44,591 nucleotides of DNA from Ignavibacteria bacterium (GTDB taxonomy: Bacteria; Bacteroidota; Ignavibacteria; Ignavibacteriales; Melioribacteraceae): the NCBI GenBank assembly GCA_016873835.1, contig VGVY01000008.1, positions 1 through 44,591 on the forward strand, in the 5' to 3' direction. Below, one piece after another: positions 280-35,030 of the stretch. How positions within the stretch are numbered: position 1 is the first letter of the stretch; every line of letters starts with the position of its first letter. The position numbers were made by a program, and so were the translations under genes. Under the pieces are notes generated by a model. That model did no database searches. It saw nothing but the letters and a program-made list of their open reading frames with translations, and was not told the origin of the DNA.

Positions 280-1209
280 TTGAGTTTTTCCAGAAATGTA
301 TTATTATGGATGTCGCAAAATGAATGGCTCAAAAAGCATGTTCCAACTTGGCGATTTGTAAAAAAAGCAGTTAAAAAATTTATGCCCGGAGAAACAGAAG
401 ATGCAGCTTTTGAAGCATCAATAAAATATTCTTCTAATAATATTCAAATTGTTATTACAAAACTTGGCGAAAATATAGCACAACTAAATGATGCCGAATT
501 AGTTAGAGATCATTACCTTCAGCTAATCGACAAAATAAATTTATCATCGCTCGATGTTGAAATCTCGGTTAAACTCACACAGCTCGGTTTTGACTTATCA
601 GAAGAAAAGACAAAATTATTTGTAACCGAAATTGCTAAGAAAATATTTAATAACCTTAGAAATACTTTTTATATTGATATCGAAAGTAGCGATTACACAC
701 AGAGGACAGTAGATTTTTACAAAAACATTTTATTGGGTTCTGAAAATGTTGGGCTTTGCCTTCAAGCTTATTTATATAGAACTGAAAAAGATTTGACCGA
801 GCTACTTGAATTAAATTCTTCGATACGCCTGGTAAAAGGCGCATATAAAGAACCAGCGGATATAGCATTTCCAGAAAAAGCTAAGGTTGATGAAAATTAT
901 TTTCTTTTGTCTAAAATGATGATGAATAAAACGCTTGAGAAAAATTTACGAATGATTTATGCTACGCACGATGAAAAATTAATTGCAAGAATAATTGATG
1001 AATCAAAAAATATTGGATTAAAAAAAGAACAGCTGGAATTTCAAATGCTGTATGGAATAAAATCCTCTTTTCAAAGAAAACTTGCTGCCGAAGGATTTAA
1101 AGTCCGTGTATTAATTTCCTATGGTCAATCATGGTACCCTTGGTATCTGCGAAGACTTGCAGAAAGACCGGCAAATGTCTGGTTCGTTTTGAAAAATTTA
1201 ATTAGCTAA
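280..1209 (+). CDS. Proline dehydrogenase family protein, probable hydroxyproline dehydrogenase
   Basis: This 309-residue FAD enzyme is a monofunctional ProDH (TIM barrel) that oxidises proline to P5C or hydroxyproline to 3-hydroxy-P5C and passes electrons to quinone. Family motifs seen are SVKLTQLG (Lys98), YIDIES (Asp133), RLVKGAYKEP (183-192) and YLRRLAERPANV (289-300), where Arg291, Arg292 and Glu295 match Arg555, Arg556 and Glu559 of E. coli PutA. The segment before it reads RVLISYG, where proline-specific enzymes have RVYVPYG: Leu278 replaces the conserved Tyr (PutA Tyr540). That Tyr is known to favour proline over hydroxyproline, and vertebrate hydroxyproline dehydrogenase also lacks it. 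A TTG start is chosen because an AAGGT ribosome-binding site precedes it and no upstream ATG is available. Neighbouring HOGA-like, AGT-like and P5CDH genes support a hydroxyproline role. Confidence 0.88.
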   Translation: MSFSRNVLLWMSQNEWLKKHVPTWRFVKKAVKKFMPGETEDAAFEASIKYSSNNIQIVITKLGENIAQLNDAELVRDHYLQLIDKINLSSLDVEISVKLTQLGFDLSEEKTKLFVTEIAKKIFNNLRNTFYIDIESSDYTQRTVDFYKNILLGSENVGLCLQAYLYRTEKDLTELLELNSSIRLVKGAYKEPADIAFPEKAKVDENYFLLSKMMMNKTLEKNLRMIYATHDEKLIARIIDESKNIGLKKEQLEFQMLYGIKSSFQRKLAAEGFKVRVLISYGQSWYPWYLRRLAERPANVWFVLKNLIS

Positions 1210-1251: not shown

Positions 1252-2142
1252 ATGAAACAGCTAAAAGGTATTTTGCCCCCAATCACAACTCCGTTTATCA
1301 AGGGGGAACTTTCTATAGAAAAACTTGAATTCAACATCTCCAAATGGAACTCAACTTCTTTAAGCGGTTATGTTGTTATGGGTTCCAATGGAGAATCTGT
1401 TTTATTAACAAGAGATGAAAAATTAAAGCTTATTGAAGCAGCAAAAAAATTTGCATCGGAAGAAAAATTATTAATTGCTGGAACCGGAAGCGATTCTATC
1501 AAAGAAACGATTAACTTAACAAATGACTCTGCGAAACTAGGTGTAGATTATGCACTTGTTTTAACGCCATCATTTTATAAATCTGAAATGAAGCATGAAG
1601 CGTTTGTAAAATATTTTTCTTTAGTGGCTGATTCAACTGATATCCCAATAATTATCTACAACGTGCCAAAATTCACTGGTGTTGATATTGAAACAGAAAC
1701 TGTGCTTGAACTTTCTAAGCATCAAAATATTGCCGGTATAAAAAACAGCACAGAAAATATAAGGCAGATAATTGAGTTTGTTTCAAAAACAAAAAATGAG
1801 TTCAATGTTTTAGTTGGTACTGCTTCAATGCTTTATTCTGGATTTACTTCTGGTGCTGTTGGAGGAATTGTTGCGCTCGCAAATATAGCTCCGAAAGAAA
1901 CTGTTCAGATTCATGAATTTGTCAATCAAGGGAATTTAATTGATGCACTTTCTCTTCAACAAAAAATGATTCCGATAAATAAGGCTGTAACATCAAAATT
2001 TGGTGTTGCTGGATTGAAGGCTGCTATGGACTTGCTTGGTTATTATGGCGGAGATCCTCGTGTTCCTTTAGCTCCATTAAATGAATTGAATAAAAATATT
2101 CTGATTAATATTCTTAAAGATTCTGGTCTGCTAAATAATTGA
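1252..2142 (+). CDS. 4-hydroxy-2-oxoglutarate aldolase (HOGA1-like, DapA/NAL superfamily)
   Basis: This 296-residue class I aldolase belongs to the DHDPS/N-acetylneuraminate lyase superfamily. The Schiff-base Lys is Lys164 (in AGIKNST), the catalytic Tyr is Tyr136 (in IIIYNVP), and the substrate-binding GSNGE loop is at 44-48. The spacings Ser45-Tyr136 (91) and Tyr136-Lys164 (28) equal those of human HOGA1 (Ser77, Tyr168, Lys196). The C-terminal FGVAGLKAAMDLLGYYGG stretch matches the HOGA1 C-terminus from memory much better than it matches DapA. The expected reaction is 4-hydroxy-2-oxoglutarate to pyruvate plus glyoxylate, the fourth step of hydroxyproline catabolism. It has an AAGG ribosome-binding site. 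The neighbours (ProDH before, AGT after) supply its substrate pathway and consume glyoxylate. The alternative is another DapA-family aldolase with a different keto acid. Confidence 0.87.
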   Translation: MKQLKGILPPITTPFIKGELSIEKLEFNISKWNSTSLSGYVVMGSNGESVLLTRDEKLKLIEAAKKFASEEKLLIAGTGSDSIKETINLTNDSAKLGVDYALVLTPSFYKSEMKHEAFVKYFSLVADSTDIPIIIYNVPKFTGVDIETETVLELSKHQNIAGIKNSTENIRQIIEFVSKTKNEFNVLVGTASMLYSGFTSGAVGGIVALANIAPKETVQIHEFVNQGNLIDALSLQQKMIPINKAVTSKFGVAGLKAAMDLLGYYGGDPRVPLAPLNELNKNILINILKDSGLLNN

Positions 2143-2166
2143 CCATACGTGCTAAACGGAGAAAAA

Positions 2167-3279
2167 ATGATAAATACATTTACACCGCAAAATAGAATTT
2201 TAATGGGACCCGGTCCTTCAAATGTTAATCCAAAAGTATATGATGCATTATCTAAAGCAACCTTGGGACATCTCGACCCGCAGTTTATTGAATTGATGAA
2301 TGATTTAATAAAACTTCTTCAATACACTTTTAAAACGGAAAATAATAGCACATTTGTTCTTTCAGGCCCAGGCTCTTTAGGAATGGAAGCTGCTCTTGTA
2401 AACCTAATTGAACCGGATGATAAAGTTGTGGTTTGTGTTGGAGGGTTTTTTGCTAATCGTATGACACAAATGGTTGAAAAATTTGGCGGAAACTTGATTA
2501 CCGTAAAGGAAACATGGGGACGTGCAATCGATCCTCAAAAACTTGAAGATACTTTGAAGGATAATCCTGATACAAAAATTGTAGCTTTTGTTCATGCAGA
2601 AACATCAACTGGTGCTTTATCAAATATTAAAACTCTTTCGGAGATTGCTCATAAACATAATTGCCTCGTTATTGCAGATGTTGTAACGTCACTTGGTGCT
2701 TGTGAGGTAAGAGTTGAGGAATGGAAGCTTGATGCAGTTTATTCATGTTCACAAAAAGGATTAGCATGTGTTGCTGGTATGTCCCCAATGACCTTCAGCG
2801 AAAAAGCTGTCCACAAAATTTTGAATAGAAAATCACAAGTACGCAGCTGGTTCTGTGATTATAAATTATTGATGTCATATTGGAGCGGAGAAAAAAGAGC
2901 TTATCATCATACAGCTCCGGCAAATCAATTTTATGGATTACACACAGCTCTTCAAATACTTCATGAGGAGGGGATAGAAAATTCCTGGCGGCGTCATAAA
3001 GAAAATTCTGTAAAATTAATTTCCAAATTAAAGGAGATAGGACTTGAGCCGCTTGTTCCAGAAAAAGAAAGAATTCCAAATCTAATCACGGTAAAAATTC
3101 CTGAGGGAGTTGATGATGTCAAAATTAGATTAGAACTTTTAAATAAACACAATTTAGAAATTGGTGCTGGACTTGGAGAGCTTGTTGGAAAGGTTTGGAG
3201 AATTGGGCTGATGGGTTATAATTCAAATGACAAAATGATCGACTACTGTATTAGTTCATTAAAAGATGTGTTGAAATGA
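2167..3279 (+). CDS. Class V aminotransferase, alanine-glyoxylate aminotransferase type
   Basis: This 370-residue PLP enzyme is of the AGXT/serine-glyoxylate aminotransferase family. The N-terminal GPGPSNV loop is at 14-20, the PLP-ring Asp is Asp171 (in VIADVVTS), the PLP Schiff-base Lys is Lys197 (in SCSQKG), and the substrate carboxylate Arg is Arg345 (in KVWRIGLMG). The segments YHHTAP and ENSWRRHKE are characteristic of AGXT-type enzymes. The likely role is transfer of an amino group from alanine (or serine) to glyoxylate to give glycine, removing the toxic glyoxylate made by the upstream aldolase. I start at the ATG at 2167 because GGAG lies 6 bp before it; a GTG at 2149 is possible. 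The last four bases overlap the next gene (ATGA), indicating translational coupling. Confidence 0.88.
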   Translation: MINTFTPQNRILMGPGPSNVNPKVYDALSKATLGHLDPQFIELMNDLIKLLQYTFKTENNSTFVLSGPGSLGMEAALVNLIEPDDKVVVCVGGFFANRMTQMVEKFGGNLITVKETWGRAIDPQKLEDTLKDNPDTKIVAFVHAETSTGALSNIKTLSEIAHKHNCLVIADVVTSLGACEVRVEEWKLDAVYSCSQKGLACVAGMSPMTFSEKAVHKILNRKSQVRSWFCDYKLLMSYWSGEKRAYHHTAPANQFYGLHTALQILHEEGIENSWRRHKENSVKLISKLKEIGLEPLVPEKERIPNLITVKIPEGVDDVKIRLELLNKHNLEIGAGLGELVGKVWRIGLMGYNSNDKMIDYCISSLKDVLK

Positions 3280-3881
3280 AATCGAAGTTTTTTGTAAGCA
3301 TTATTTTATTTATTTGTTTCTTATTATCTGGAGCAACTATTGCTAAACAGCAAAAGACTAACCAGAATACATTTGTAAACAAAACTTATAAATACCAATT
3401 TCAATATCCATCCTATTTTAACATAGAAGATAAGTTTGATGATGAGATTTATCTTGATTATCAAAATACTCATTTGATTATCAGGGTGTTAGATTTAGAA
3501 ACGTTATTTGCTGAATACTCTCTTGTAAACAAAAATTTTAATCCTAAGGATGACAAGTTTGTAACAGTTTCACAATTTCATTCAATAATAGTTAGCGGAG
3601 CAGATGGCCCTGACGGCTCAGTTTATTTAGATGATTCCTACCTTACTGATGATTTTATTTCTCAAAATAATTTAAGGATTATAAAATTTCATGCAGATAT
3701 GGTAAGAGAAGATTATAACTCCAAAATAACAAAGGTAGGCCGGGCTGGTCCTTTTTATGGAATTAAGCTGAATAATAAGCATTCATTGTATATTACATTT
3801 AATTATGGATTAGAATTGGCTGATAATGAAATCGAAAAAATGTTAGATTCTATTACAAAATCGGTCGTTTTAACTAAATGA
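3276..3881 (+). CDS. Exported protein of unknown function within the hydroxyproline cluster
   Basis: I do not recognise this 201-residue protein with certainty. It has a signal peptide of about 22 residues (MKSK, then a hydrophobic core, then SGATIAK), so it acts outside the cytoplasm. After that comes a mature domain with a YKYQFQYPSYFNIED start that resembles small PsbP-like domains, which often begin with a Tyr-x-Phe-x-Tyr-Pro stretch; this is only a similarity of pattern. There are no further membrane segments, cysteines or metal motifs. Its ATG overlaps the stop of the aminotransferase gene by four bases, so it is made from the same message. It could be a periplasmic binding or accessory factor for the peptide/imino-acid pathway, but nothing in its sequence proves that. 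Confidence 0.7.
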   Translation: MKSKFFVSIILFICFLLSGATIAKQQKTNQNTFVNKTYKYQFQYPSYFNIEDKFDDEIYLDYQNTHLIIRVLDLETLFAEYSLVNKNFNPKDDKFVTVSQFHSIIVSGADGPDGSVYLDDSYLTDDFISQNNLRIIKFHADMVREDYNSKITKVGRAGPFYGIKLNNKHSLYITFNYGLELADNEIEKMLDSITKSVVLTK

Positions 3882-3970: not shown

Positions 3971-5608
3971 ATGGCAAATGCTATTTTTAATGTACCATTA
4001 CCACCAAATGAACCAGTAAAAAGTTATGCACCAGGCTCACCGGAAAAGAAAGCACTTAAATTAAAACTCGATGAATTAGCAAACCAGCAAATTGAAATCC
4101 CGATAATTATTGGCGGAAAAGAAATTAAAACAAACGACACCGATAATTGTGTAATGCCGCATAACCATAAACATGTAATAGCAAAATATCACAAGGTCAG
4201 CGCAAAAGAAGTTAAGATGGCAATTGATAATGCAATGGAAGCTCATAAACTTTGGAGCAGAATGGAATGGCAAGATAGAGCTGCAATTTTTCTAAAAGCT
4301 GCCGATCTTTTAAGTTTAACTGAATGGAGATACATTTTAAATGCAGCAACTATGCTTGGTCAAAGTAAAAATCCATTTCAAGCAGAAATTGATGCTGCTG
4401 CTGAGCTAGCAGATTTTTTTAGATTCAATGCATATTATGCGACACAAATTTATAAAGAACAGCCTCTTCACTCTCCTTTTGGAATGTGGAATAGAATGGA
4501 ATACAGACCACTTGAAGGATTTATTTTTGCAGTTGCACCATTCAACTTTACATCGATAACTGGCAATTTACCGACAGCACCGGCTTTAATGGGAAATGTA
4601 TCGTTATTAAAACCAGCTTCCAGTTCTGTGTATTCGGCATATTGGATTATGAAACTGCTTGAAGCCGCCGGCTTACCTCCGGGAGTAATTAATTTTGTTC
4701 CGGGTTCAGGTTCTAAAGTTGGTAATCCAGTTATGGATTCTGAGTACTTTGGCGGAATTCATTTTACCGGATCTACTCCAACATTCCAAGCAATGTGGAG
4801 AACAGCTGCAAACAATTTGCCTAAATACCGCACTTATCCAAGAATAGTTGGCGAAACCGGAGGAAAGGATTTTATTTTTGCTCATTCGAGTGCTGATGTA
4901 ACAGCTTTAGGAGTTGCTCTTATTCGAGGTGCATTTGAATATCAAGGACAAAAATGTTCTGCTGCTTCAAGAGCATACATTTCAAAATCAATTTGGAAGG
5001 AATTAAAAGACTACATGATTGCAGAATTAAAAACGGTCAAAATGGGCGATCCGTATGATTTTACAAATTTCTTTAATGCAGTAATTGATAAGAATGCATT
5101 TGATTCAATAAGTGAATACATCAAGTATGCAAAAGATGCCAAGGATGCCGAAATAATTTTTGGTGGAGGGTGTGATGATTCTATGGGATATTTTATAGAA
5201 CCGACTGTAATAGAAACATCGAACCCAAAATTCAAAACAATGGAAGAAGAAATTTTCGGTCCGGTTTTAACAATTTATGTTTATGATGATAACAAATATG
5301 AAGAAACTCTTCAATTATGCGATCAAACTTCGCCGTTTTCATTGACCGGGGCAATTTTTGCGCAAGATAGATACGCTGTTGAAAGGGCAGATAAAGTTCT
5401 TACCAATGCTGCCGGCAACTTTTATATCAACGATAAACCCACTGGTGCTGTTGTTGGTCAGCAACCATTTGGAGGTGCGCGTGCAAGTGGAACAAATGAC
5501 AAGGCTGGCAGTTATCTTAATTTATTAAGATGGGTTTCTGCAAGAACAATAAAAGAAAACTTTATTCCTCCAAAAGATTATCGATATCCATTTTTAAATG
5601 AAAGATAA
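3971..5608 (+). CDS. pruA: L-glutamate gamma-semialdehyde (P5C) dehydrogenase, ALDH4A1 type
   Basis: This 545-residue NAD-dependent aldehyde dehydrogenase oxidises glutamate semialdehyde (from P5C) to glutamate, or 4-hydroxyglutamate semialdehyde (from 3-hydroxy-P5C) to 4-hydroxyglutamate. The catalytic Cys329 lies in YQGQKCSAASR and the general-base Glu295 in GETGGKDF; their spacing of 34 equals that of human ALDH4A1. The oxyanion-hole Asn is Asn192 in APFNFTS. The C-terminal NAAGNFYIND and VGQQPFGGARASGTNDKAG stretches are the ALDH4A1-type substrate loop. Its length and sequence resemble the animal mitochondrial enzyme more than the C-terminal half of PutA. An AAAAAAGGA ribosome-binding site precedes the ATG. 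It is the second oxidative step after the ProDH-family enzyme at 280-1209, with three other pathway genes in between. Confidence 0.93.
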   Translation: MANAIFNVPLPPNEPVKSYAPGSPEKKALKLKLDELANQQIEIPIIIGGKEIKTNDTDNCVMPHNHKHVIAKYHKVSAKEVKMAIDNAMEAHKLWSRMEWQDRAAIFLKAADLLSLTEWRYILNAATMLGQSKNPFQAEIDAAAELADFFRFNAYYATQIYKEQPLHSPFGMWNRMEYRPLEGFIFAVAPFNFTSITGNLPTAPALMGNVSLLKPASSSVYSAYWIMKLLEAAGLPPGVINFVPGSGSKVGNPVMDSEYFGGIHFTGSTPTFQAMWRTAANNLPKYRTYPRIVGETGGKDFIFAHSSADVTALGVALIRGAFEYQGQKCSAASRAYISKSIWKELKDYMIAELKTVKMGDPYDFTNFFNAVIDKNAFDSISEYIKYAKDAKDAEIIFGGGCDDSMGYFIEPTVIETSNPKFKTMEEEIFGPVLTIYVYDDNKYEETLQLCDQTSPFSLTGAIFAQDRYAVERADKVLTNAAGNFYINDKPTGAVVGQQPFGGARASGTNDKAGSYLNLLRWVSARTIKENFIPPKDYRYPFLNER

Positions 5609-5659: not shown

Positions 5660-6952
5660 ATGAAAAAGTATATTAATATTTTTATTCTGTTGCTTTTTGT
5701 TTCATCGTTTTCTTTTTCCCAATCAGAATCTGAATTATATTCTAAGTTAAAAACAATAAAAGAAATTTCTTCGATTGAGGTTATAAAAGCTGACACAACA
5801 TTTAAAGAAGCATATGAAATAATGTTTGAACAGCCATTCGATCATCAAAACCTGGGTGGGCCAAAATTCAAACAAAGAATTTTTCTTTCTCATCTCGATT
5901 TCACGAAACCGGTAGTTTTTATCAATGAAGGTTATGCAGCAAATAGAAATTATAAATCCGAACTTTCACGGATAATTGAATCAAACCAAATTATTGTTGA
6001 GCACCGCTACTTTGGAAAATCAACTTTGGGAGTGGATGACTGGCAATATCTTACGACCAAACAAAGTTCAGATGATCATTATGCAATTATTAATGCATTA
6101 AAAAAAATCTATAACGGAAAGTGGATAAGCACCGGAATAAGCAAGGGCGGGCAAACTTCAATCTTCTTAAAATATTATCACCCAGATGCGGTTGATGTTT
6201 CAGTGCCTTATGTAGCTCCATTAAATCTGAGTCAGGAAGATCCAAGAATCTATGAATTTTTCTACAATGTTGGCGATGAAGAATGCCGCTCCAAAGTTAC
6301 TCAGTTCCAAAGAACAGCATTGCAGAGGAGAGATGAAATATTGCCTATGATTAAAGAATATTCATCAGAGAAAAAATACACTTATTCAATTGGATTAGAT
6401 TTTGCTTATGAATATGCAGTTCTTGAATATGCTTTTTCATTCTGGCAGTGGTATAATGATGGCTGCAATAAGATTCCAGCGCCAGATGCACCGGCAAAAG
6501 AATATTATGAAAACATGAAAAGCCTGATGGATTATGTATCAGATCAAAGTCAAAATTATTTTGCTCCTTTTATGTATCAAGCATATACAGAAGTTGGATA
6601 CTATGGATATGAGCTTGGGCAGTTCAGCGATGTTTTGAAATTTCTTAAAGGTGATATAGTAAGCAGCTGTATTTTCTTTCCAAACGGATGTGAACTAAAA
6701 TTCAACAACGAATTAATGCCTAAAGTAAATCAATTTATTCAAGAAAAAGGAAACAACATGCTCTATATTTATGGAGAGCTTGATGCTTGGTCATCCACTG
6801 CTGTTGAGATTGGAAGTAAAACAAATGCTGTTAAAATGGTTAAGAAAGGCGGTTCGCATAGAACTCGAATCAACAGTTTTAGCGATGAAGAAAAAGAGAA
6901 TATCTTCAATACGCTTGAAAATTGGTTAGATATAAAAATCAATAGGAATTGA
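5660..6952 (+). CDS. Secreted S37-family serine peptidase (tripeptidyl-aminopeptidase type)
   Basis: This 430-residue alpha/beta-hydrolase peptidase has a signal peptide cleaved around residues 20-21 (SFSFSQ). The nucleophile is Ser161 in TGISKGGQT, an elbow typical of Peptidase_S37 (PS-10), and it is followed by YVAPLN. The likely Asp is Asp375 (YGELDAWS) and the likely His is His400 (KGGSHRTR). An HRYFG motif at 115-119 precedes the lid region (about 200-330), as in S28/S37 enzymes. Known S37 members release tripeptides from protein N-termini outside the cell. Sitting directly behind a proline/hydroxyproline degradation cluster, it may help digest collagen-like or proline-rich peptides. The specificity is inference; the family is clear. 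It may also have its own promoter after the hairpin at 5619-5642. Confidence 0.85.
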   Translation: MKKYINIFILLLFVSSFSFSQSESELYSKLKTIKEISSIEVIKADTTFKEAYEIMFEQPFDHQNLGGPKFKQRIFLSHLDFTKPVVFINEGYAANRNYKSELSRIIESNQIIVEHRYFGKSTLGVDDWQYLTTKQSSDDHYAIINALKKIYNGKWISTGISKGGQTSIFLKYYHPDAVDVSVPYVAPLNLSQEDPRIYEFFYNVGDEECRSKVTQFQRTALQRRDEILPMIKEYSSEKKYTYSIGLDFAYEYAVLEYAFSFWQWYNDGCNKIPAPDAPAKEYYENMKSLMDYVSDQSQNYFAPFMYQAYTEVGYYGYELGQFSDVLKFLKGDIVSSCIFFPNGCELKFNNELMPKVNQFIQEKGNNMLYIYGELDAWSSTAVEIGSKTNAVKMVKKGGSHRTRINSFSDEEKENIFNTLENWLDIKINRN

Positions 6953-22833: not shown

Positions 22834-23340
22834 TTGAATAATTACTTGCCAAATCGAAAACGCACACGTCGTAAAGATCATGATTACACTTCTTCGGGTT
22901 ATTATTTCATTACAATTTGTATTGCTAATCAAAAATACAAATTTGGCAATATTAAGAATGGAACAATGGTTCTTAATAAATATGGTTTAATTTTAGAAAA
23001 GTGTTGGAATGATTTACCAAACCATTATAACTGCTCACTCGATTTTTTTTCAATCATGCCTGATCATTTTCATGGCATAATACAAATCAACAAATCAGCC
23101 AAACCTGAAAATGTGCCTTATTCTCTTTCTGAAATTGTTCGTGGATTAAAAACATTTTCTTCAAAAAATATTAATGCTGAAATAAGAACTAGTAATAAAT
23201 TCAAATGGCAAAAATCTTTTTATGACAGAGTGATTAGAAACGAAAAAGAATTATATCAAATAAGAAAGTACATTGAACAAAATCCCATAAAGTGGGATTT
23301 GGCAAATCAATTCCCAGAAAATGTAGGGAATGGTCTATGA
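22834..23340 (+). CDS. REP-associated tyrosine transposase (RAYT, Y1_Tnp family)
   Basis: This 168-residue protein is of the IS200-like Y1 transposase superfamily. It has the RAYT-type start RRKDHDYTSSGYYFITICI, the HUH metal motif MPDHFHGII (His78, His80), the WQKSFYDRVIRNEKEL block and the catalytic Tyr146 in KYIEQNP. RAYTs nick and rejoin single-stranded REP hairpins and are thought to have spread REP sequences. A TTG start is used because a stop lies directly upstream in frame and no early ATG exists. The last residues (NVGNGL) and the TGA stop are encoded by the first repeat unit on the right side, so gene and repeat are physically fused. REP arrays flank it on both sides. Confidence 0.93.
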   Translation: MNNYLPNRKRTRRKDHDYTSSGYYFITICIANQKYKFGNIKNGTMVLNKYGLILEKCWNDLPNHYNCSLDFFSIMPDHFHGIIQINKSAKPENVPYSLSEIVRGLKTFSSKNINAEIRTSNKFKWQKSFYDRVIRNEKELYQIRKYIEQNPIKWDLANQFPENVGNGL

Positions 23341-27374: not shown

Positions 27375-28376
27375 TTAGAAAAGTTTGATTTGATTGATAT
27401 ATTCCGAGACTCTTTTGTTTGCTAAATCAACATATTTTCCATTAGTATCATAACCAATAAAATTTCTATCATTCTTAATTGCTGCAAGGCTAGTAGTTCC
27501 ACTACCCACAAATGGATCTATAACTATCTCATTTTTAAATGTATATAATTTAATTAAGCGATGAGGTAGTTCTTCTGGAAATGGTGCCGGATGGCCAATC
27601 ATTTTTGCTGAAACAGCGGGGAATGTCCAAACACTCTTAGTCCATTCTAAAAATTCTTCTTTAGTTATAGTACTTTCTTTACCATTATTTTGTTTTGAAA
27701 AGGAAGCTTTAGAAAAAATAAGCACATAATTATGAACATCTTTTATTCTATCCGGAACTTGTTCAATAGGAATTTCAATTCTTTGTTTATTTTCAGAAAT
27801 ATCTTTTGAGAAAATCATAATGAATTCATGGATATCACGTAAAACTGGATTCGCTGCTGATAACCAACTACCCCACGCAGTAGAGGGGCTTGCACTTGAT
27901 GCTTTATTCCATATAATTTCCCCACGCATCAAAAAACCTAATTCTAGCATATCTTTTATAATATAACTGTGAAGAGGGATATATGGCTTTCTTCCAAGAT
28001 TTGCAATATTAATACATGCTCTACCTCCTGGAACAAGTACACGGTATGTTTCTTTCCAAACATTTTTCAACAAAGCTAAATATTCATCAAGATTTAGATT
28101 TTCGTCATATTCTTTAGTAACATTATAAGGAGGTGAAGTAATCATTAAATGAACAGAGTTGTCAGGCAACTCGTCCATTTGCTCACTTGAATGACAGAAA
28201 TGTTTATTTAAAAACTCAGTGGAAAGTTTATTCTCAATATGTTGAACTTTTTCTTTTCTAATAAATCCATCGTAGAGACGAGAGTTATAAAATTTTGATG
28301 AATCATGGTTTATTCTTCCTTTTGTTCCGAAAGAACTAGTTTTGGTCCCATTATTTTTTTTGTTTTTATGATTCAT
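27375..28376 (-). CDS. Type II DNA methyltransferase, N4-cytosine-type (beta class order)
   Basis: This 333-residue S-adenosylmethionine methylase has the catalytic TSPPYNV motif (Ser81-Pro-Pro-Tyr84) before the SAM-binding DPFVGSGTTSLAA motif (287-299), i.e. the beta-class order. SPPY is typical of N4-cytosine enzymes. The middle holds an imperfect internal repeat: DIHEFIMIFSK (181-191) and DVHNYVLIFSK (213-223), 32 residues apart. Relatives I remember have this block once, so the gene may carry an internal duplication. The first 40 residues are basic. It overlaps the upstream nuclease gene by 11 bp and probably protects the host from it. The recognition sequence cannot be read from the protein. 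Confidence 0.9.
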   Translation of the reverse strand: MNHKNKKNNGTKTSSFGTKGRINHDSSKFYNSRLYDGFIRKEKVQHIENKLSTEFLNKHFCHSSEQMDELPDNSVHLMITSPPYNVTKEYDENLNLDEYLALLKNVWKETYRVLVPGGRACINIANLGRKPYIPLHSYIIKDMLELGFLMRGEIIWNKASSASPSTAWGSWLSAANPVLRDIHEFIMIFSKDISENKQRIEIPIEQVPDRIKDVHNYVLIFSKASFSKQNNGKESTITKEEFLEWTKSVWTFPAVSAKMIGHPAPFPEELPHRLIKLYTFKNEIVIDPFVGSGTTSLAAIKNDRNFIGYDTNGKYVDLANKRVSEYINQIKLF

Positions 28377-29256
28377 ACTTTTTCTTGATCAATAATAAAA
28401 ACTTTTCAGCTTTCTTTTCTGTATCAACTTCACGATTTGCAATCTCTATTATCTTGCCAAGTTCTTTTTTTGACTTCATACTAGAAAAGAATTCTCTTTG
28501 TTCTGAAATTAACTGTTCAAGATTTTTTTCTAATTCTGAATATGAATCCATACGGATAAAACCTAGTTCTCTCGTTTTCTTTAAGTTACTATCATTTTTA
28601 TCCAAAGGTGAATGGTTAACCGACCAAAACCCTTGAATAATTCCAGCTTTCGTTAAATAATCTAATTTCTTATAGTATGATTCTGTAATTGGTGTATTTC
28701 CTAATACAATTATCGGAATATGTGCCGCTTCTATATTTGATACTCTAATATTAATACTTTTCCCAATTGCTTTTAACATGGAATCTGAACGAAGCAAGCC
28801 TGGGTTTCCCTGATGGGATTTATAATCTCCAAGACAAACTAATTCTTCTTTATCCCCAAATTGTTTTAATTCCCAATTCCAGACTATTGACATTTTTACC
28901 TCAAAAATTATTAGAATATTTTGAGATTTTTGTATTAGGTCTTTAGATTTACAAATTGCGACATCCGCGGGTGATTGTTTGGTTAGACCTAGCTCTTCAC
29001 AAATTGCTCCCTGAACTGTAAACCAATCATGTTTTGCTGCAAAATTACAAAGTAAATCAACAGAAAATTTTTCTGTAAAATTTCCTATTAGAGAATTTCT
29101 ACTTTGTAAAGTTGATTTTTTGCCTAGGTAATTGTGAGGCCAGTATGCTAAATATCTATTATCATTAGTAACATAAAAAAGTTTTTCTTTCGTAGCAAAC
29201 TTCATTGATTCTTTAAAAAATTCAATTTCCTTTTCTTTTGTCCATAACCGCGACAT
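28366..29256 (-). CDS. Putative Type II restriction endonuclease (PD-(D/E)xK)
   Basis: I do not recognise a named family for this 296-residue protein. It carries a plausible PD-(D/E)xK nuclease core: Glu63 in a helix (NFTEKFSVDLL), Pro96-Ala-Asp98 in SPADVAICK, and Glu119-Val-Lys121 in IIFEVKMS, all in the right order and spacing. Its position directly before, and 11-bp overlap with, a Type II cytosine methylase makes a restriction enzyme the obvious call. The start at 29256 is chosen because AAGGAA precedes that ATG; a longer form from 29304 would have no such site. Lys-, Ile- and Asn-rich composition matches its methylase partner. Confidence 0.75.
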   Translation of the reverse strand: MSRLWTKEKEIEFFKESMKFATKEKLFYVTNDNRYLAYWPHNYLGKKSTLQSRNSLIGNFTEKFSVDLLCNFAAKHDWFTVQGAICEELGLTKQSPADVAICKSKDLIQKSQNILIIFEVKMSIVWNWELKQFGDKEELVCLGDYKSHQGNPGLLRSDSMLKAIGKSINIRVSNIEAAHIPIIVLGNTPITESYYKKLDYLTKAGIIQGFWSVNHSPLDKNDSNLKKTRELGFIRMDSYSELEKNLEQLISEQREFFSSMKSKKELGKIIEIANREVDTEKKAEKFLLLIKKKYES

Positions 29257-29375
29257 AAATATTCCTTGTTGTGAAGCATTTTCATTAACAATATAATAAT
29301 TCAAAATTTATTATTCATTTAACTATTAATAAACCATTATTCCTTATTCTATTAATAAAACTATTTCGCTATTAC

Positions 29376-33698: not shown

Positions 33699-34124
33699 TC
33701 AATTTCTGTATATAGCATTAAAAAACTCAAAAAACATTAATCTAATTTCATCCCTTACTTTCCTGAAGACTGATAGAATTTCCTCTTCTGTTCCAATTGC
33801 ATCCGCCGGATCTTCAAAGCTGATGTGAAGTTTTTGTTTTACATTTCCGGTAAAAACTGGGCAAGTTTCTTTTGCATTATCGCAGACTGTTATTACAAAA
33901 TCGAATGATTGATTCAAATATTTTTCAACATCTTCCGGGATGCTTTTACTAATATCAACTCCAATTTCATTCATTACTAAAATGGCATATGGATTTACTT
34001 TTTGTGCTGGTTTTGTTCCGGCAGAATAAACTTCAAGCTCCGCGTCAAATGACTTGAGAAATCCTTCCGCCATTTGACTTCGGCATGAATTACCGGTGCA
34101 GAGAATTAATATTTTTTCCTTCAT
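33699..34124 (-). CDS. arsC: Arsenate reductase, low-molecular-weight phosphatase type
   Basis: This 141-residue protein has the LMW-PTP P-loop CTGNSCRS with nucleophile Cys9 and Arg15, plus the redox pair Cys81 and Cys88 (TVCDNAKETCPVF) and the general-acid Asp in FEDPADA. These match the three cysteines of the thioredoxin-coupled ArsC family of Staphylococcus/Bacillus (Cys10, Cys82, Cys89). It reduces arsenate to arsenite. The ATG at 34124 follows AAAGGA; the longer frame from 34157 runs into the hairpin repeat and is unlikely. It is downstream of arsR and arsM on the same strand. Confidence 0.93.
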   Translation of the reverse strand: MKEKILILCTGNSCRSQMAEGFLKSFDAELEVYSAGTKPAQKVNPYAILVMNEIGVDISKSIPEDVEKYLNQSFDFVITVCDNAKETCPVFTGNVKQKLHISFEDPADAIGTEEEILSVFRKVRDEIRLMFFEFFNAIYRN

Positions 34125-34144
34125 ACAATATCCTTTGATTAATG

Positions 34145-34227
34145 GCACACAGATCAAACTGATCTAACAGATAAAAACTGATTTTTAAAATCTGTTTAAA
34201 TCAGTTTCATCTGTTAAATCTGTGTGC
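34145..34227. repeat. Long imperfect hairpin between arsM and arsC
   Basis: Three paired blocks build an 83-base stem-loop: GCACACAGAT (34145-34154) with ATCTGTGTGC (34218-34227), TAACAGAT (34165-34172) with ATCTGTTA (34209-34216), and ACTGATTT (34177-34184) with AAATCAGT (34198-34205). The last base pair reaches the arsM stop codon. It could terminate or attenuate transcription from arsRM into arsC, or protect the arsRM message. ACAGAT/ACTGAT words recur along it, so it may belong to a dispersed intergenic repeat family. Confidence 0.75.
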
Positions 34228-35030
34228 TATTTGTCTTTAAAAGATGTTACAGTAATACTGAATATTCCGATTTTATTTTGCTTGAAAGTACTAATTTCTT
34301 CTACCGATAAATAATGAGCAAGAATTTGGTCTGGGAGATCAATCACTTTCGTTTTATTAATTACAGTATTAACAAAACCGGTATCATTAATAATTTTAAG
34401 ATATTCTTCTTTCTGAATTGCCCCGGCAACACAACCGGCATACATCTCTGCAGATTTTTTTAAGCTATCTGGCAATTCTCCTTTTATTACAATATCCGAA
34501 ACACATATATGTCCGCCAGGTTTTAATATTCTATAAATTTCTGAAAATGCTTTTTCTTTGTTTGGAACTAGATTTAATACGCAATTGCTCACTACAACAT
34601 CGACCGAATTACTTTCGATTGGCATTGCTTCTATTTCTCCAAGTCTAAACTCCACATTTTTGTAGCCAAGTTTTTGATTGTTCCGATTTGCTTTATCAAT
34701 CATCTCGTTAGTAAAATCTAGTCCAATTACTTTTCCTTTTTCGCCAACAATTGAGCGAGCAACGAACACATCATTCCCAGCTCCGCTTCCAAGATCAACT
34801 ACTGTATCACCTTCTTTTATTTGAGCAAATTCTGTCGGCAATCCGCATCCAAGACCAAGATCAGCATCTGGAACATATCCTTTCAGATTTGAATAATCAT
34901 CTTGCAAAATAGTATATCCGACAATTTTATTTGAAGTGCCACATCCACAACCGCAACCAGATTGAGAAGTTTTTGCAATTGTTCCATACTTCTCTTTTAC
35001 AATCTCTTTTATTTCTTTTTCGTTTTGCAT
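34227..35030 (-). CDS. arsM: Arsenite S-adenosylmethionine methyltransferase
   Basis: This 267-residue class I methyltransferase has the SAM motif VVDLGSGAGNDVF (77-89) and MPIESNSVDVVVSNCVLNLV. The arsenite-binding cysteines of the ArsM family are present: Cys62 (LGLGCGLP), Cys150 (VSNCVLN) and Cys200 (YAGCVAGA), preceded by a CGCGCG cluster (Cys26, Cys28, Cys30) in place of the usual N-terminal Cys pair. It methylates As(III) to mono-, di- and trimethylarsenicals, detoxifying by volatilisation. Its first 22 bases overlap the end of arsR, so both are translated from one message under ArsR control. Confidence 0.94.
   Translation of the reverse strand: MQNEKEIKEIVKEKYGTIAKTSQSGCGCGCGTSNKIVGYTILQDDYSNLKGYVPDADLGLGCGLPTEFAQIKEGDTVVDLGSGAGNDVFVARSIVGEKGKVIGLDFTNEMIDKANRNNQKLGYKNVEFRLGEIEAMPIESNSVDVVVSNCVLNLVPNKEKAFSEIYRILKPGGHICVSDIVIKGELPDSLKKSAEMYAGCVAGAIQKEEYLKIINDTGFVNTVINKTKVIDLPDQILAHYLSVEEISTFKQNKIGIFSITVTSFKDK

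Follow-up and report, generated by a model that had tools for sequence, protein, structure and literature searches.

Hydroxyproline (Hyp) is abundant in collagen, and in the literature covered here its degradation by bacteria has been described along two routes. The epimerase pathway (PMC4113996, PMC6608401) acts on trans-4-Hyp through HypE/LhpA, a D-Hyp dehydrogenase, a Pyr4H2C deaminase that belongs to the DHDPS superfamily, and KGSA dehydrogenase, generating 2-oxoglutarate. The second route relies on the radical enzyme HypD (PMC7077986), which catalyzes an anaerobic dehydration to P5C. In humans, the pathway involves PRODH2/HYPDH, ALDH4A1, HOGA1 and AGXT; HYPDH, which displays a larger, PutA-like fold, is a drug target in primary hyperoxaluria whose structure is unsolved, and the human enzymes are described as difficult to produce recombinantly at large scale (PMC13155685). 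HYPDH is a member of the proline dehydrogenase (ProDH) family, in which Tyr540 of E. coli PutA is held to impose the preference for proline (Ostrander 2009, as cited in PMC3718742). PDB entry 3e2q contains the PutA Y540S mutant with trans-4-hydroxy-L-proline bound. Vertebrate HYPDH itself carries a Ser at the Tyr540 position.

The window analyzed here, a stretch of 44,591 nucleotides from an Ignavibacteria bacterium (contig VGVY01000008.1 of assembly GCA_016873835.1), opens with a set of genes whose predicted activities are those of the human pathway, headed by a ProDH-family protein that also lacks the Tyr (Table 1). It differs from the human system in that the bacterial genes form one operon, in that Leu and Trp, rather than Ser, are found at the pocket, and in that the dehydrogenase has a compact, monofunctional fold of the Thermus/Deinococcus type. 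In its layout, the operon is well supported as a counterpart of the human route for hydroxyproline, distinguished by its own choice of specificity residue. No description of a bacterial HYPDH/HOGA operon was found in the literature searched, whose coverage was partial; an operon mirroring the human route would, if the reading is correct, constitute a third bacterial route for Hyp.

Table 1. Features of the predicted hydroxyproline operon, in positions of the window.
Feature	Position	Strand	Remarks
M24 (prolidase/Xaa-Pro aminopeptidase-like) peptidase, 3' end, cut by contig start	1..261	+	PF00557, 47.9 bits
Leu-type proline dehydrogenase family protein, predicted HYPDH	280..1209	+	PF01619; closest solved structure is T. 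thermophilus ProDH
Leu278 codon (TTA)	1111..1113	+	Equivalent of E. coli PutA Tyr540 and T. thermophilus Tyr275 (alignments)
Ser280 codon	1117..1119	+	Corresponds to Pro542; all orthologues have either Ser or Ala
Trp288 codon	1141..1143	+	PutA Tyr552 equivalent; Trp in every orthologue
Predicted 4-hydroxy-2-oxoglutarate aldolase (HOGA1-type, DHDPS superfamily)	1252..2142	+	Best PDB match is human HOGA1
Class V aminotransferase, alanine-glyoxylate/serine-pyruvate type	2149..3279	+	Best PDB match 1vjo (an alanine-glyoxylate aminotransferase), 362 bits; true start probably ATG 2167
Hypothetical exported protein	3276..3881	+	Overlaps aminotransferase stop; no Pfam match; tblastn recognised no counterpart in related loci
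P5C (L-glutamate gamma-semialdehyde) dehydrogenase, ALDH4A1 type (P5CDH)	3971..5608	+	TIGR01236, 802.2 bits (cut-off 613.6); only member over cut-off in the genome
S37 family prolyl peptidase	5660..6952	+	PF05576, 191 bits; likely exported

The Tyr540 position and the fold of the predicted HYPDH

The gene starts with TTG and encodes a product of 309 residues, which contains GFKVRVLISYGQSWYPWYLRRLAERPANVWF; the protein matches PF01619 at 94.9 bits (cut-off 27), and its score against the NCBIfam ProDh_Thermus equivalog NF045947, 232.8 bits, lies under the cut-off of 500. Residues 276-292 read RVLISYGQSWYPWYLRR, and within this segment Leu278 aligns on the Tyr of RAYVPYG in T. thermophilus, RVYLPYG in D. 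radiodurans and RLYAPYG in G. sulfurreducens PutA, all of them solved ProDHs, in a register set by the WYx(Y/W)xxRR block. The original prediction of a Leu in place of the ProDH Tyr, made for positions 1090-1180, is thus confirmed by alignment with PutA and with the Thermus and Deinococcus enzymes, and the protein lacks the Tyr540 equivalent of proline-specific ProDHs. No other Tyr takes its place: Tyr164, which corresponds to Tyr437, is present in Leu-type and Tyr-type proteins alike, and the Tyr552 position itself is occupied by Trp288. The remaining catalytic and pocket residues Lys329, Asp370, Tyr437, Leu513, Arg555 and Arg556 correspond to Lys98, Asp133, Tyr164, Leu257, Arg291 and Arg292. 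The monofunctional ProDHs of T. thermophilus and D. radiodurans share with the window protein the fold, ~33% identity, and the same catalytic Lys, Asp and Arg pair, and differ from it in the equivalents of Thermus Tyr275 and Tyr284, which have become Leu and Trp. It is of note that the replacements of Tyr552 by Trp and of Pro542 by Ser or Ala, which occur in every orthologue, had escaped the original prediction.

A structure model, which had been proposed as a check, was generated with AlphaFold2 from 24 sequences and displays a confident ProDH fold (pLDDT 90, pTM 0.87), a TIM barrel that is closest to T. thermophilus ProDH (2g37; Z 37.0, rmsd 2.2 A over 290 residues) and nearly as close to that of D. 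radiodurans (Z 36). In the secondary structure of the model, barrel strand 8 carries Leu278 and Ser280, and helix 8 carries Trp288; by analogy with PutA, these three residues would line the pocket of the proline ring.

The Leu-type enzyme may thus work like HYPDH, yet without the vertebrate-type residue. The analogy that had been drawn was to a small residue of the vertebrate enzyme, whereas Leu is not small, and all 20 orthologues (see below) carry Leu rather than the Ser of PRODH2. Since Leu is large and apolar, and can form no hydrogen bond to the 4-hydroxyl, the chemistry by which Hyp is recognized would have to differ from that of the Ser in vertebrate HYPDH.

A single clade, a second ProDH and a conserved neighbourhood

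Among 395 genomes searched within the phylum, 20 harbor an orthologue scoring at least 297 bits and 44-64% identical to the window protein, the next best match scoring 198 bits. In all 20 orthologues, the columns of Tyr540 and Tyr552 are occupied by Leu and Trp, respectively, and that of Pro542 by Ser or Ala; all of them keep the equivalents of Lys329, Asp370, Tyr437, Leu513, Arg555 and Arg556. The other ProDHs in which these columns could be aligned, taken from the same phylum and from those of Acididesulfobacillus and Armatimonadetes, have Tyr, Tyr and Pro in 95 of 95 cases; three further ProDHs, trimmed in this alignment, show the Tyr in a separate one. In a maximum likelihood tree of 115 proteins, the Leu group forms one clade (support 100/100, stem of 0.68 changes per column) that stands apart from the second ProDH encoded by these genomes. 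Judged from these sequences, the change from Tyr to Leu would most simply have arisen once and been retained since, and its fixation in 20 of 20 proteins rules out random drift or a sequencing slip. No Leu-type protein at an orthologue-level score was detected in 398 genomes of the Acididesulfobacillus phylum (best match 216 bits, against at least 297 in the Leu clade), in 251 genomes of the phylum holding Armatimonadetes (227.5 bits) or in a plasmid collection (200 bits), and a scan of genome contigs with a single Leu-type protein returned only Tyr-type relatives.

As had been suggested, the same genome was searched for another ProDH with the Tyr in place, and one is encoded at C1:126434-127180, where the motif reads RIYIPFG. 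Its gene sits between coaE- and tsaD-like genes (named by eye), with no aldolase near. At least two ProDH matches are found in 19 of the 20 Leu-type genomes.

Downstream of the Leu-type ProDH, the aldolase, the class V aminotransferase, the small protein, P5CDH and the S37 peptidase follow on the same strand, with gaps of ~20-90 bases or short overlaps between genes. Upstream, the truncated M24 peptidase has full-length homologues directly preceding the Leu-type ProDH in three related loci (L048, L051 and L055). Of the 20 Leu-type genes, 18 have a HOGA gene as their direct neighbour, compared with none of the 30 Tyr-type loci whose flanks were read, an association whose Fisher p of 1e-11 overstates independence, since all 20 genes belong to one clade and the linkage amounts to one inherited association. 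For the Leu-type orthologues of G228 (L059) and G240 (L152), both the HOGA neighbour and a close HOGA in the genome are absent; conversely, HOGA occurs without a Leu-type ProDH in the genomes G051 (L133), G224 (L134) and G373 (L135). The G228 and G240 proteins are the most divergent of the Leu-type ProDHs, and that of G240 has an SDR dehydrogenase and a distantly related member of the DHDPS family as neighbours.

Among 23 compared loci, the alanine-glyoxylate aminotransferase (AGT) recurs in 14, P5CDH in 11, aminopeptidase P in 10, the S37 peptidase in seven, and HypD, a glycyl radical enzyme, and its activase likewise in seven each. A POT peptide transporter occurs in five loci, as does a protein that resembles trans-3-hydroxyproline dehydratase. 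In the latter protein the second Cys is replaced by Thr, a mark of trans-3-Hyp dehydratase activity (PMC4113996). What unites this neighbourhood is the import and degradation of peptides rich in proline and hydroxyproline, probably derived from collagen or gelatin. The agreement of the neighbours with hydroxyproline use, claimed from the outset, turns out to be stronger than stated, given the HOGA1-type aldolase, the AGT-type aminotransferase, the sole P5CDH and the conserved loci.

HypD and its activase share a locus with HOGA in seven instances: L042 (genome G019), L043 (G357), L045 (G176), L047 (G318), L048 (G389), L049 (G035) and L133 (G051). The HypD of L043 scores 1319 bits against NF043068 (cut-off 1100), and the genome of the window holds a partial HypD of 752 bits, cut at a contig edge. 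Six of the seven loci with HypD and HOGA also hold a Leu-type ProDH, so that one locus seems to contain both an anaerobic and an oxidative route for hydroxyproline, in which the radical dehydration by HypD would run parallel to the flavin-dependent oxidation proposed here.

Proposed pathway and competing readings

These observations make it very probable that the ProDH gene encodes a flavin-dependent trans-4-hydroxy-L-proline dehydrogenase that heads a mammalian-type oxidative Hyp operon, fed by collagen-like peptides, and we infer that the enzyme prefers trans-4-Hyp over proline. That it represents a distinct bacterial HYPDH subfamily, with a Leu/Trp(/Ser) pocket, heading a complete mammalian-type operon from Hyp to glycine and coexisting with the HypD route, is a broader proposal that we consider reasonably likely. 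The reactions are assigned from protein families and from the vertebrate pathway, used as a template (PMC8779045); the gene linkage and the residues are observed directly. A pocket devoid of the Tyr540 phenol would admit the 4-hydroxyl, and its reshaped wall (Leu278, Ser280 and Trp288) would favour Hyp. FAD would accept a hydride from C5 of trans-4-Hyp, generating 3-hydroxy-P5C, the ring of which would then open, and the adjacent P5CDH would convert the hydrolysed semialdehyde to 4-hydroxyglutamate. A transaminase, either AspAT or the class V enzyme of the operon with glyoxylate as acceptor, would form 4-hydroxy-2-oxoglutarate; no dedicated 4-hydroxyglutamate transaminase was identified, and the assignment of this reaction to the class V enzyme is a guess. 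The aldolase would cleave 4-hydroxy-2-oxoglutarate into pyruvate and glyoxylate, the AGT-type enzyme would convert glyoxylate to glycine, and the oxidation of proline would be left to the second, Tyr-keeping ProDH.

The original prediction that the enzyme accepts hydroxyproline is favoured by both sequence and neighbourhood, although the loss of the Tyr might only relax specificity. The protein would then be a second ProDH that uses mainly proline and tolerates Hyp, the pocket having been widened without becoming selective. The PutA mutants Y540S and Y540A reportedly gain only ~3-fold in efficiency with Hyp while losing most of their efficiency with proline, a behaviour that speaks for such relaxation, and the adjacent P5CDH would suit the use of proline equally well. 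However, a Tyr-type ProDH already exists in the genome, the use of proline requires neither HOGA nor AGT, and the paired Leu/Trp change has been fixed in proteins that are only 44-64% identical, all of which renders relaxed specificity improbable. The substrate could also be another cyclic amino acid, such as cis-4-Hyp, trans-3-Hyp or a ring-modified proline, in keeping with a Leu that departs from the vertebrate solution and with the trans-3-Hyp dehydratase-like gene of five related loci; this is very unlikely, as a HOGA with the Ser198 equivalent suits a 4-hydroxylated substrate (PMC3188589), and the related loci already have their own dehydratase for trans-3-Hyp.

If the Leu-type enzyme is indeed a HYPDH, its compact fold could make it a tractable structural stand-in for the human enzyme, and the paired Leu/Trp change could provide a handle on how ProDHs choose between proline and Hyp.

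The aldolase and the remainder of the window

The aldolase finds its best match among solved structures in human HOGA1 (hHOGA), at 220 versus 155 bits with a single sequence and 295 versus 193 bits with a profile. The active-site residues of hHOGA are Ser77, Asn78, Tyr168, Lys196, Ser198 and Gly222, of which Asn78 and Ser198 have been described as unique to HOGA (PMC3188589); their equivalents in the window aldolase are Ser45, Asn46, Tyr136, Lys164, Ser166 and Gly189. Full-length orthologues keep all six, and replace Arg138 of DHDPS by Phe. Other DHDPS-family proteins of these genomes mostly have Thr, Thr, Arg and Ala, the true DapA pattern. Compared with the epimerase pathway, which likewise degrades trans-4-Hyp with the help of a DHDPS-superfamily protein, the window thus encodes an active site of the aldolase type rather than the deaminase type, with pyruvate and glyoxylate as the predicted products in place of 2-oxoglutarate.

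The aldolase could alternatively be a 4-hydroxy-tetrahydrodipicolinate synthase (DapA) or correspond to the Pyr4H2C deaminase known from the epimerase pathway, in which case the neighbourhood would be silent on the HYPDH step; DapA and Pyr4H2C deaminases do belong to one superfamily (PMC4113996, PMC6608401), and the protein scores 195.3 bits with the dapA model, just below the cut-off of 206.15. Both possibilities are extremely unlikely: the aldolase and its orthologues carry the HOGA-specific Asn and Ser and lack the DHDPS Arg (Phe141 for Arg138, Ser45/Asn46 for Thr44/Thr45), where the true DapAs of related genomes have Thr, Ala and Arg, and the presumed Pyr4H2C deaminase of S. meliloti, 21% identical to the aldolase, shows Met in place of Asn78 and Phe in place of Ser198 (Ser-Met and Lys-Glu-Phe, against Ser-Asn and Lys-Asn-Ser in the window aldolase). 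The latter comparison involves a single reference, a DHDPS-family protein assigned by its neighbourhood in a pSymB region with two proline racemase-family genes. Neither a D-Hyp dehydrogenase nor a 4-Hyp epimerase was recognised within the window. In addition, the genome holds no second PF00701 protein and no DapB_C match, which makes a role of the aldolase in lysine synthesis unlikely. The family scores suggest that automatic annotation would likely label the two genes as proline dehydrogenase and dapA-like, in that order.

The classical DAP/lysine route appears to be absent from this genome, and lysine and the DAP of peptidoglycan must therefore come another way. Elsewhere in the window, all identified by eye, lie a REP-associated tyrosine transposase-like protein (22834-23340, + strand), a DNA methyltransferase-like gene that overlaps a possible restriction partner (27375-29304, - strand), and a small phosphatase-like arsenate reductase that adjoins an arsenite methyltransferase-like gene (33699-35030, - strand).
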